A stretch of DNA of 20,034 nt from a virus, in IMG/VR virus record IMGVR_UViG_3300030085_000252, positions 1-20,034 of that record. One strand, given 5' to 3'. The translations under genes were made by a program, and so were the position numbers. Numbering within the stretch: the first letter of the stretch is position 1; each line of letters opens with the position of its first letter. Positions 11,072 through 15,703 of the stretch are shown piece after piece. A model generated the notes under the pieces. That model was not told where the DNA came from. It made no database searches and saw only the letters and a program-made list of their open reading frames with translations.

Positions 11072-11756
11072 CATACCGTACTTCAAAGCATGGGTACGTA
11101 GAGAATACACGAAGAACTTAGAAGATTATCACGGAGAGTTTTTACATTGTATGGTCATAGGTGTAACCACCATGCCAAACAGAACGTTAAGCTTTCAAGT
11201 TATATTTACTGGATGCGAGTCAGACTTCGATGACTCAGAAAATGTACATGGTGGTGCGATGTGGGCGAGGATGCCTCTGACTGCACTTGTAGCTGATACC
11301 CCCTTAGAGGAATGGCCTGAAGAGTTACCGCCATATATGGCACAACCTTGGGATTGTATGTCTCACACGCATTCAGTATACAAGTTGGAACGAGCAAGCC
11401 CAGCGCCTTGGATAGCTAAAGTAGATGGTGAGTTCTACCCTGCAAAGTATTACTTTACGGTAGACTACACAGATAATGAAGTAGCAGATGATCCTGCACA
11501 GCATAAACAATCTCATGTTTTGGAGTTGTTAGATGCAGGTAAGTACACAGGTAACATGGTTGCGTTACCCAATAATAGAGTGAGAGTAACTCACCCAGCT
11601 TGGTTTGAAACTGGAGAAGGTGCGCCAGACTTTAAACCAAACCAACATATGTATAACTCAAAAGAAGACGTAGACTATGTATGGGATACGCAACGAGTGT
11701 TTAACAATCTATATAGTGAGGATATAACAGATGATGAAGAAGAAGGGTTACGCTAA
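11052..11756 (+). CDS. Conserved marine phage protein of unknown function (234 aa)
   Basis: I recognise this protein by pattern from marine phage genomes: it begins MPYLQSNIPYFKAWVRREYT and includes MVIGVTTMPNRTLSFQVIFT, VHGGAMWARMPLTALVAD, MAQPWDCMSHTHSVYKLER, DGEFYPAKYYFTVDYT and LPNNRVRVTHPAWFETGEGA. The high content of Trp, Tyr, Pro and Gly suggests a compact beta-rich fold. I chose the ATG at 11052; the frame is open further up but overlaps a real gene. It has no catalytic motif I can name. Its position in the late arm before structural genes suggests a virion or assembly function. Confidence 0.85.
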   Translation: MPYLQSNIPYFKAWVRREYTKNLEDYHGEFLHCMVIGVTTMPNRTLSFQVIFTGCESDFDDSENVHGGAMWARMPLTALVADTPLEEWPEELPPYMAQPWDCMSHTHSVYKLERASPAPWIAKVDGEFYPAKYYFTVDYTDNEVADDPAQHKQSHVLELLDAGKYTGNMVALPNNRVRVTHPAWFETGEGAPDFKPNQHMYNSKEDVDYVWDTQRVFNNLYSEDITDDEEEGLR

Positions 11757-12039
11757 AGGCGGCATGAAGAAAAAAGGTTATGCCAAGGGCGGTATGAAAA
11801 AGAAGGGCTACGCAGCAGGTGGCTTGAAGATGGTCAAAGGCAAAGACGGAAAGATGGTTCCGTTTTACGCTGCTGATGGCAAAGGCAAAATGGCTAACGG
11901 TGGTATGGCTAAAAAGAAAAAGAAAAAAGGCTACGCAATGGGTGGAGCTAATATGAAAAAGAAGGGTTACGCTAAAGGCGGTAAAACCAAAGCTAATGCA
12001 GGTGCATCCGTTCCACCAAACAGAAAGGCTCGTAAATAA
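11731..12039 (+). CDS. Lys/Gly repeat protein (MKKKGYAKGG repeats)
   Basis: The 102-residue protein is built from MKKKGYAKGG repeats: three adjacent copies at the N-terminus, a partial copy (KKKKGYAMGG) and one more near residues 75-84, with a short nonrepetitive segment KMVKGKDGKMVPFYAADG between. It is very basic and probably disordered, suited to binding DNA, RNA or polyanions. Similar KKGYAKGG tracts occur in other marine phages. It overlaps the upstream gene by 26 bases and its stop overlaps the next ATG (TAATG). Function unknown; DNA condensation or a structural role is possible. Confidence 0.85.
   Translation: MMKKKGYAKGGMKKKGYAKGGMKKKGYAAGGLKMVKGKDGKMVPFYAADGKGKMANGGMAKKKKKKGYAMGGANMKKKGYAKGGKTKANAGASVPPNRKARK
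11734..11982 (+). repeat. 30-base coding repeats with varied codons
   Basis: Copies of the MKKKGYAKGG-encoding unit lie at 11734-11763, 11764-11793, 11794-11823 (with AAGG in place of AKGG) and 11953-11982, with a degenerate copy near 11917-11946. Synonymous codons differ between copies (GGT/GGC, TAC/TAT, GCT/GCC, AAG/AAA) while residues are kept, so selection acts on the peptide and the duplication is not recent. Confidence 0.85.
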
Positions 12040-12329
12040 TGTCAGACTTAACTAAAGAGCAAGTAGATGCAATAGAGGCATTAGGTTATACTGTAATAGG
12101 TAACACAGCACTAGACATAAATAAAGCTATCGTTATGGATAAACCAGAAAGAGACGGTGGTTTTGTAACTGATGTACCAGAACTAGAGGCTATACTATCA
12201 GGTACAGCTACAGTTGAAACTGTACGTGCAAGAAACGAAAAAGGTCACTACATTGCAGATGATCCTGATACACCTGAGAATGAAGCTTGGACAACTAAAG
12301 TAGTTAAAAAAGTTAAAGGCAAAAAGTGA
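12039..12329 (+). CDS. Conserved hypothetical protein with ADDPDTPENEAW tail
   Basis: The 96-residue protein starts MSDLTKEQVDAIEALGYTVI and has a compact first half, including VPELEAILSGTATVETV. The tail block RNEKGHYIADDPDTPENEAW, ending KKVKGKK, is a motif I associate with marine phage proteins, often at C-termini of virion-related products. It starts by TAATG overlap and its stop overlaps the next GTG. Function unknown, possibly virion-associated. Confidence 0.78.
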   Translation: MSDLTKEQVDAIEALGYTVIGNTALDINKAIVMDKPERDGGFVTDVPELEAILSGTATVETVRARNEKGHYIADDPDTPENEAWTTKVVKKVKGKK

Positions 12330-13459: not shown

Positions 13460-13831
13460 ATGACAAGAAATTTAACTGAGAAGCAACAAAAGTTCCTTGA
13501 GGTTTTGTTTGATGGTGCAGGTGGCGATGTTGTACAAGCTAAGAAACTAGCAGGGTACGGTGATGGCACTAGCACTACATCTATTGTAGAATCGTTGAAA
13601 GATGAGATAGGTGACAGAACACGTAGCTACTTTGCACGTACAGCACCCAAAGCTGCAATGGCTATGGTGGGTGCATTAAGTGATCCTACAGAACTAGGCA
13701 TACGAGATAAGATGTCAGCTGCTAAAGACTTGCTTGATCGGGCAGGACTAGGTAAAGTAGAAAGAGTAGATGTATCGTCATCTAGTGGTGGCGTATTTAT
13801 ACTACCATCAAAAGAAGGAAAGAACGAATAG
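13460..13831 (+). CDS. terS: Terminase small subunit-like protein
   Basis: The 123-residue protein has the N-terminal LTEKQQKFLEVLF with GDVVQAKKLAGYGDG, which resembles the HTH start of phage terminase small subunits. Then come a helical core with APKAAMAMVGALSDP and MSAAKDLLDRAGLG, and a C-terminal beta stretch GVFILPSKE. It would recognise the packaging site and stimulate the large subunit. It starts directly after the preceding stop. Its TAG stop overlaps the ATA that I propose as the start of the next gene. It sits two genes ahead of the terminase large subunit, supporting the call. Confidence 0.8.
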   Translation: MTRNLTEKQQKFLEVLFDGAGGDVVQAKKLAGYGDGTSTTSIVESLKDEIGDRTRSYFARTAPKAAMAMVGALSDPTELGIRDKMSAAKDLLDRAGLGKVERVDVSSSSGGVFILPSKEGKNE

Positions 13832-14253
13832 TTAAATACCGTGAGTCATTAGGATACTGGGAATTACCTAAACCACACAAGGGTGCAGAAAAAGATTGGC
13901 ACGTAATAGCTAGAGTAACTAGGACAGTGCCTTTCGGATATAAAGTGCATCCTGACAATGATAAGATACTTGAGCCTATTGTAACAGAGTTAGAAGCATT
14001 AGAACTTGCAAAGAAACATCTTATGCAGTACTCTTACAGAGAAGTAGCACTGTGGTTAACAAAACAAACAGGTAGGTACATATCTGATACAGGGCTAAAG
14101 AAAAGAGTAGACATTGAGCGAAAACGTAAGAAAGCAGCTACAATTAAACGCAAGCTTGCCAAAAGGCTCGAAGAGACGCTACAAGAAATCAAGAAACTTG
14201 AAGAAGAATGTATCGGAGCCTATACAAGCAGAGCTAACGAAGCAAGAGCCTGA
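13828..14253 (+). CDS. HTH protein in the terminase cassette with a non-standard start
   Basis: The open frame runs from 13786; no ATG, GTG or TTG occurs before GTG at 13927. Upstream codons encode protein-like sequence: VKYRESLGYWELPKPHKGAE, then KDWHVIARVTRTVPFGYKV. An ATA at 13828 overlaps the previous stop as ATAG and lies seven bases after AAGGAA, so I propose it as the start (141 residues); a GTG start at 13927 would give a 108-residue truncated version. The body has LMQYSYREVALWLTKQTGRY, an HTH-like pair, then ISDTGLKKRV and a Lys/Arg/Glu-rich coiled coil. It probably acts with the terminase in DNA recognition, inferred from position. Confidence 0.75.
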   Translation: MVKYRESLGYWELPKPHKGAEKDWHVIARVTRTVPFGYKVHPDNDKILEPIVTELEALELAKKHLMQYSYREVALWLTKQTGRYISDTGLKKRVDIERKRKKAATIKRKLAKRLEETLQEIKKLEEECIGAYTSRANEARA

Positions 14254-15703
14254 AGTAGAAGTTGTAGCAGCAGAAGTCAAAGCACCTGAGTTTGACGTTG
14301 ATGTTGCACAGGACATCGTGTTTAAGCCAAACCCAGGTCCACAGACAAACTTCCTATCCGCATCTGAAAGGGAAGTTTTGTACGGTGGGGCGGCTGGCGG
14401 TGGTAAGAGTTTTGCGATGCTGGCTGACCCACTTCACGGTTTAAATGATCCTAACTTTAGTGGTCTACTTGTTCGTCATACTACTGAAGAACTTAGAGAG
14501 CTTATACAGAAGAGTCAAGAACTTTACCCTAAAGCTGTACCAGGTATCAAGTGGTCAGAACGTAAGTCACAGTGGATTGCACCTAGAGGTGGTAGACTGT
14601 GGATGTCGTACCTCGACAAAGACATGGACGTAACACGATACCAAGGTCAAGCGTTTAACTGGATTGGCTTTGACGAGTTAACACAGTGGCCTACACCCTA
14701 CGCTTGGGATTATATGCGGTCACGACTTCGTTCAGCATTTAGTTCTCAGCTAGGTTTATACATGAGAGCTACAACAAACCCAGGTGGCAACGGACATCAG
14801 TGGGTTAAGAAAATGTTTATTGATCCATCTCCTGCTGGTCAACCTTTTTGGGCAACCAATATTGAAACAGGAGATACTATAAAATTTCCTAAAGGGCATA
14901 GTCGAGAGGGACAGCCCTTGTTTAAGCGTAGGTTCATACCTGCTAGTTTGTTTGATAACCCTTATCTTGCAGACAGTGGCGATTATGAAGCAATGCTATT
15001 ATCATTGCCTGAGCATCAAAGAAAGCAGTTACTAGAAGGTAACTGGGATGTTAACGAAGGAGCAGCATTTCCTGAATTTGATAGAAGCATACACGTTGTG
15101 GAGCCATACAGTATTCCTAAATCATGGGTTAGATTTAGAGCTTGCGACTATGGTTACGGCTCCTACACTGGAGTTTTATGGATCGCTGTTTCACCAAGTG
15201 AACAACTGGTTGTCTACAGAGAGCTATATTGTTCTAAGGTTACAGCTACAGATTTAGCAGATATGATTATTGAAGCTGAATCAGAAGATGGTACTATGAG
15301 GTACGGTGTGTTGGACTCATCCCTCTGGCATAAAAGAGGTGATACTGGCCCATCACTTGCAGAGCAGATGAACATGAAGGGATGCAGATGGCGTCCTTCA
15401 GATCGCTCTCGTGGTTCTAGGGTTGCTGGTAAGAATGAGATACACCGTAGGTTGCAGGTGGATGAGTTCACCGAAGAGCCTAGACTCGTGTTCTTCTCCA
15501 CCTGCACGAATACTATAGCGCAAATCCCTGCGATTCCGCTAGACAAAAAGAATCCTGAAGACGTAGATACAAATGCTGAGGATCACTTGTATGATGCATT
15601 ACGTTACGGTATAATGACTAGACCAAGAAGTTCTATATGGGATTTTAATCCTGCAACACAACGCTCTGGCTTTCAAATGTCAGACCCAACATTCGGATAC
15701 TAA
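14198..15703 (+). CDS. terL: Terminase large subunit (ATPase and nuclease)
   Basis: This is the DNA-packaging motor protein. With the TTG at 14198 as start it has 501 residues. Walker A is YGGAAGGGKS (62-71), Walker B WIGFDE (155-160) and the coupling motif ATTNPGG is at 191-197. The nuclease domain shows RACDYGYG (about 314-321), VLDSSLW (D373) and the C-terminal acidic pair in EDHLYDALRY (D462, D466). It hydrolyses ATP to translocate DNA into the head and cuts concatemers. The start is unclear: TTG codons at 14114, 14156 and 14198 are in frame and none has a good ribosome site, and the homologous-looking sequence begins near SEPIQAEL. The overlap with the HTH gene is at least 56 bases. Confidence 0.93.
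   Translation: MKKNVSEPIQAELTKQEPEVEVVAAEVKAPEFDVDVAQDIVFKPNPGPQTNFLSASEREVLYGGAAGGGKSFAMLADPLHGLNDPNFSGLLVRHTTEELRELIQKSQELYPKAVPGIKWSERKSQWIAPRGGRLWMSYLDKDMDVTRYQGQAFNWIGFDELTQWPTPYAWDYMRSRLRSAFSSQLGLYMRATTNPGGNGHQWVKKMFIDPSPAGQPFWATNIETGDTIKFPKGHSREGQPLFKRRFIPASLFDNPYLADSGDYEAMLLSLPEHQRKQLLEGNWDVNEGAAFPEFDRSIHVVEPYSIPKSWVRFRACDYGYGSYTGVLWIAVSPSEQLVVYRELYCSKVTATDLADMIIEAESEDGTMRYGVLDSSLWHKRGDTGPSLAEQMNMKGCRWRPSDRSRGSRVAGKNEIHRRLQVDEFTEEPRLVFFSTCTNTIAQIPAIPLDKKNPEDVDTNAEDHLYDALRYGIMTRPRSSIWDFNPATQRSGFQMSDPTFGY

Follow-up and report, generated by a model that had tools for sequence, protein, structure and literature searches.

The stretch of DNA analysed here (the window, 20,034 nucleotides of the 20 kb virus record IMGVR_UViG_3300030085_000252) carries a terminase cassette with the gene order terS, small protein, terL and portal. 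This order, together with sequence similarity, identifies the window as a contig of an HMO-2011-type marine phage. In a DNA search, the cassette most resembles those of two Roseobacter phages, CRP-603 and CRP-2, at 78% nucleotide identity across 87% of its queried length, followed by CRP-207, CRP-9, CRP-1, HMO-2011 and CRP-345. The small terminase subunit gene terS (13460–13831, plus strand) encodes 123 amino acids ending in KEGKNE before a TAG stop, matches phrog_2538 (E=1.3e-4) and is homologous to the annotated terS of CRP-603, CRP-2 and CRP-207. It is followed by a gene that we call mid (13828–14253, plus strand), for a 141-amino-acid protein between TerS and TerL, and by the large subunit gene terL (14114–15703, plus strand; phrog_979, E=6.5e-56). 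terL most likely starts at TTG 14114, which is kept in close relatives, aligns with the ATG start of HMO-2011 TerL and gives a 140-base overlap with mid; the starts of the cassette would thus be ATG, ATA and TTG. The database annotations of CRP-603 and CRP-207 place the terL start further downstream than this conserved TTG. Elsewhere in the window, a lysine- and glycine-rich open reading frame (ORF) with repeated KKKGYAKGG-like units lies at 11731–12039, and an ORF resembling a tyrosine-recombinase integrase at 370–1323 on the minus strand; the phage may be temperate, a lifestyle reported for CRP-3.

The mid frame is open from a TAG at 13783 to the TGA at 14251–14253, and its first conventional start is the GTG at 13927–13929 (plus strand). 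As an earlier note on this DNA had pointed out, no in-frame ATG, GTG or TTG lies upstream of that GTG; the upstream part comprises 33 codons counting an ATA at 13828–13830 (plus strand), which shares bases with the terS stop TAG (13829–13831) as ATAG. The AAGGAA that the note placed seven bases before the ATA is found at 13815–13820, and a putative Shine-Dalgarno (SD) element, AAAGAAGG, spans 13811–13818 (plus strand) in the terS codons AAA GAA GGA, nine bases before the ATA, with an anti-SD duplex of −5.7 kcal/mol. Overlapping starts of the kind invoked for comparison are also real, namely GTGA at 12326–12329 and TAATG-type junctions at 12039 and 15906 in the window, and the gene junctions of CRP-207 include 12 at −1 and 9 at −4. 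Structured RNA at the junction gave no signal and no Rfam match: the window junction folds no better than shuffled sequences (z 0.39), and RNA structure is weaker at ATA junctions than in the flanking sequence (−7.8 vs −12.2 kcal/mol). Using ARAGORN, no tRNA able to read AUA at initiation was found in the window, in 50 of the 55 kb of CRP-207 or in three short loci.

An ATA over a stop in one sequence is cheap, requiring only that terS ends in NNA TAA or NNA TAG. Five scans of viral contigs provided about 400 loci with 253 distinct junctions, including two loci (L021 and L105) whose contigs begin inside terS and which, left unclassified by the script, were assigned by eye. All 120 of the distinct junctions without an early canonical start have an in-frame ATA exactly over the terS stop, conserved as ATAA or ATAG, an overlap of start and stop such as defines termination-reinitiation pairs. 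Conversely, where mid has a canonical start at +5 (ATG in 52 loci, GTG in 11, TTG in 9), GTA stands over the stop in 72 of 72 loci because terS ends in GAG there. No locus in this frame lacks both the ATA and a canonical start. Judged from these junctions, the ATA is present across relatives far beyond chance.

Other lineages start mid differently. The earlier note had suggested comparing N-termini with homologues that carry an ATG at this position; homologues with an ATG do exist, although in CRP-603 and CRP-2 it lies two codons downstream (TAA-GT-ATG-AAC-CGT in CRP-603) and in the kin of HMO-2011 it takes the form ATGA. At the position of the CRP-603 ATG the window has AAA, two substitutions away. 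Further forms are ATGAGTAG/ATGACTAG, ATG at +7 and a start in the terS frame. Where mid lies in the terS frame and an ATA is useless to the gene, terS ends in GAA as often as in GAG (6 and 6 representatives). Within the set L202–L320, the mid start is unusually changeable, with ATG, GTG or TTG at +5, ATG at +7, terS-frame starts, ATGAGTAG, ATGA and ATA all occurring at terS/mid junctions.

A sequencing or assembly error behind the missing ATG is ruled out by about 190 loci and by the complete genome of the cultured phage CRP-207. Because gene finders look for ATG, GTG and TTG, such a start is missed in annotation, for example in CRP-207. In that annotation (L401 48065–48480, minus strand), the 257 bases after terS are empty, and the annotated 52-amino-acid ORF gp62 corresponds to the C-terminal part of mid.

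We then used third-base A/G changes in 115 terS genes of ATA lineages as a test of synonymous constraint, with nine Lys/Glu columns as controls. No such change occurs at K-6, E-5 or E-1, counted back from the terS stop, vs 5–19 changes at each of the control columns. The K-6 and E-5 codons form the SD AAAGAAGG, and E-1 supplies the A of ATA. The SD codons AAA and GAA are invariant in 120 of 120 ATA junctions, and the first base of ATA has never changed in 115–120 sequences. More specifically, none of the 111 Glu codons at E-1 ends in G, while the remaining Glu codons of these terS genes are GAG in 354 cases and GAA in 511, and in four sequences where E-1 has turned into Gln (CAA) the A of ATA is kept. 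In contrast, canonical-start lineages vary at all three sites (AAA/AAG 33/32, GAA/GAG 60/5 and GAG/GAA 59/6, respectively). A putative non-AUG start is thus conserved together with an SD at a fitting distance, as in genes with conserved AUN starts.

To place the ATA state on a phylogeny, a tree of 103 representatives was built with IQ-TREE from mid (from its conserved Trp onward) and the TerL N-terminus, leaving out the start codons. ATA appears on it four times separately, in the clades of the window, of CRP-207 and of L236–L245 and in L296. Four changes are needed, forced by well-supported branches, and the range over bootstrap trees is 4–4, from a bootstrap that is not fully settled. The mutual exclusion of ATA and canonical starts agrees in 4 of 4 independent pairs (sign test p=0.125, significance being out of reach with four changes). 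With canonical-start outgroups, the simplest reading is four gains of ATA, though the counts alone do not separate gain from loss.

Regarding the product, mid proteins of HMO-2011-type relatives have about 140 residues and lie between TerS and TerL. Structure prediction from an alignment of the loci of the viral contig scans (mean pLDDT 78) gives the core, YSYREVAxWLSxxTGRYISHxGLKKR, two helices in a helix-turn-helix arrangement followed by a long C-terminal helix (predicted helices at residues 52–64, 70–81 and 87–126). We found no family for the protein in Pfam or PHROGs and no match in a PDB sequence search; Foldseek against the PDB gave nothing significant for the model, with weak helix-turn-helix matches to serine recombinases and to G20c TerS (6ejq, the best TerS structure match, probability 0.38, E 3.4). 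In CRP-212 (L011 2018–3883) and CRP-738 (L012 2000–3871), a longer TerL follows terS directly, and the N-terminus of the CRP-212 TerL matches the protein that the kin of the window encode as a separate overlapping gene: mid aligns with residues 11–74 of this fused, 621-residue TerL (hhalign probability 97.8, 63 columns). Furthermore, the fused TerL matches phrog_979 from position 49, and the TerLs of the window and HMO-2011 only from 113–116. Given both matches, mid most likely represents the DNA-binding N-terminal domain of TerL, carried on a gene of its own, and its homology and gene position suggest a role in packaging.

Two readings would do without initiation at the ATA. In one, translation starts at GTG 13927 and the similarity upstream is a remnant; GTG 13927 is indeed the first conventional start in the window, and CRP-207 has been annotated likewise with a short downstream ORF (gp62). 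The sequence upstream of this GTG, protein-like according to the earlier note, proves to be under the same purifying selection as the rest of mid: pN/pS for codons 5–32 vs codons 33–90 is 0.327 vs 0.329 where Trp lies at codon 10 (53 sequences) and 0.208 vs 0.185 where it lies at codon 9 (56 sequences), with values of about 1 or more in the other two frames. W11, P14 and W24, which belong to this upstream part, are invariant in relatives as distant as HMO-2011. Moreover, the GTG is not conserved, most window-like relatives carrying ATA (Ile) there. Where ATA loci have a later canonical start, its position ranges from codon 6 to codon 91 (mostly codon 33–91), and 8 of 119 have none, so the ATA loci share no alternative canonical start. 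We therefore reject GTG 13927, which is unconserved and would remove three invariant residues, and give this reading next to no credence. In the other, a −1 ribosomal frameshift near the 3' end of terS produces a TerS–mid fusion and mid dispenses with a separate start. In favor of this, every ATA locus has mid in the −1 frame relative to terS, and in the window this frame stays open as far back as 13783 and contains A AAA and A AAG steps. However, the absence of a clear slippery heptamer, already remarked on in the earlier note, holds: the window has no XXXYYYZ heptamer and none is common to the relatives. The codon before AAC GAA TAR varies freely (ACA, ACG, TCA, TCG, GCA, GAA, GAG, CAG, AAG, ATA), and of 119 distinct loci, 46 have the −1 frame closed within five codons of the stop and 21 within two, which in the latter leaves only AAC and GAA/CAA to slip on. 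No stimulating downstream RNA structure was found at the window junction compared with shuffles or at ATA junctions compared with flanks. Nor is the frame relation between terS and mid conserved, HMO-2011 having a different one; relatives have a separate ATG start for mid, and what is conserved, the SD and the A of ATA, is what initiation requires. Frameshifting is rejected as the shared mechanism, there being no conserved slippery site and the −1 frame often being closed near the stop, and we regard it as very improbable.

The remaining alternatives accept a non-AUG start and differ in which codon is used or why it is kept. The CRP-207-like branch might start at another AUN codon, as ATT stands at the position of the CRP-603 ATG (+5) and a second ATA at +2 is common. 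Neither is invariant in this branch (GTA in L153, L157, L181, L183 and L201), whereas the −1 ATA is present throughout it, and the window has neither; use of these codons in place of the ATA over the stop is rather unlikely, and in a CRP-207 subclade they could serve instead of the −1 ATA or along with it. Alternatively, the AUA start may be merely tolerated after loss of an ATG and persist because terS commonly ends in GAA TAA, without any selection for a weak start. In its favor, an ATA over the stop arises for free from NNA TAA or NNA TAG; against it stand the lack of G-ending codons at E-1, the change of Glu to Gln while the A stays, and the presence of ATA in four separate clades. The terS stop also bears on this reading. 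An ATG at the mid start is one transition away, from TAA to TGA, as GAA-TGA would create the canonical overlap ATGA. In ATA lineages, terS ends with TAA in 104 cases, TAG in 16 and TGA in none, despite 11 changes between TAA and TAG, and none of these junctions has taken the one-step route to ATG. TGA is otherwise frequent: in CRP-207 it ranks second among the stops (25 of 68, with TAG at 8), and in ATA loci 107 of 120 mid genes and 23 of 98 terL genes carry it. By this informal test, the lack of TGA suggests that a stronger start of mid is selected against. On the side of tolerance, TGA is rare at the terS stop of canonical-start lineages as well (1 of 65), and its avoidance could have another cause. 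We consider tolerance alone possible, if somewhat doubtful.

We thus favor, as a probable reading of these comparisons, the AUA at 13828 as the real start of mid, to which ribosomes come by termination-reinitiation from terS and whose weakness selection maintains. The proposal of the earlier note, an ATA start over the terS stop with neither frameshift nor downstream GTG, passed every test that we ran; the tight regulation that the note called usual for such starts may apply here too. Ribosomes finishing terS would stop at UAG 13829–13831, and AAAGAAGG in the last terS codons would hold or re-recruit them. Reinitiation on the overlapping AUA would use the ordinary initiator tRNA, with fMet and a C:A mismatch at the third base, presumably under the control of IF3, and would depend on translation of terS. 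Because AUA is a poor start, ribosomes would make little mid product relative to TerS; together, the stop overlap, the SD within terS, the low structure and the weakness of AUA elsewhere lead us to expect low, terS-coupled output. The mid protein would then contribute to packaging as a DNA-binding domain split off from TerL, and selection would preserve the AUA and its weakness alike, low dosage being the presumed purpose. Whether the AUA is an attenuator that replaced a canonical start in several lineages (four on the tree), with ATG kept out by selection and a low mid:TerS ratio as the result, seems to us an evenly balanced question.

The window thus appears to hold a packaging gene that starts with AUA, a codon hardly ever used for this, in a widespread marine phage group in which many relatives have kept the AUA and separate branches have acquired it, a pattern suggesting a deliberately weak start. 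If AUA initiation is real, abundant marine phages would have AUA starts as a conserved class, for which relatives with ATG, GTG, TTG or ATGA would be natural controls, making start strength, reinitiation and terminase stoichiometry directly testable.

Both ingredients of this arrangement, AUA starts and the coupling of stop and start, are known; in the open-access literature we found no report of their combination and no matching case of a phage gene with an AUA/ATA start. The orfA/orfB pair of IS911 has an AUU start in a gene overlap, together with frameshifting. This mobile element likewise has a weak non-AUG start where two genes overlap, and it differs in start codon, in genes and in that the window lacks a frameshift signal. 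Among pairs with a −4 overlap (ATGA/GTGA), the shared start and stop bases, the SD inside the upstream gene and products that likely act together are common features with the window (PMC6728339, PMC10666635, PMC12548453), and termination-reinitiation needs overlaps or very short distances (PMC10666635). In the parts of these surveys available to us, such overlaps are described as NTG with TGA; if the stop is TAA or TAG, a −4 overlap requires ATA or a different NTA codon, which is not listed there. Streptomyces sigR is reported to have a GTC start under IF3 control, likewise a non-canonical start limiting protein output, with a different codon and in a cellular regulator (PMC5472188).

In E. 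coli, infC and pcnB have conserved AUU starts with low initiation efficiency. These conserved non-AUG AUN starts are likewise accompanied by an SD (as cited in PMC13009471). AUA starts themselves are used in vivo in Staphylococcus aureus, in infC, ccpN and citZ, where reporters for ccpN and citZ reach about 10% of AUG and, in rich medium, ccpN reaches up to 30% (PMC13009471), and IF3 is known to favor strong third-base pairs (PMC10158994). The S. aureus infC and ccpN genes likewise combine a conserved AUN start, an SD and a low initiation efficiency kept over evolution (PMC13009471). Their AUA sites have extended SDs, whereas the SD here is moderate (−5 to −6 kcal/mol), which counts against our explanation. 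Unlike the AUN starts of S. aureus and E. coli, the AUA described here is fused to the preceding stop as AUAA or AUAG and lies in a phage packaging operon.
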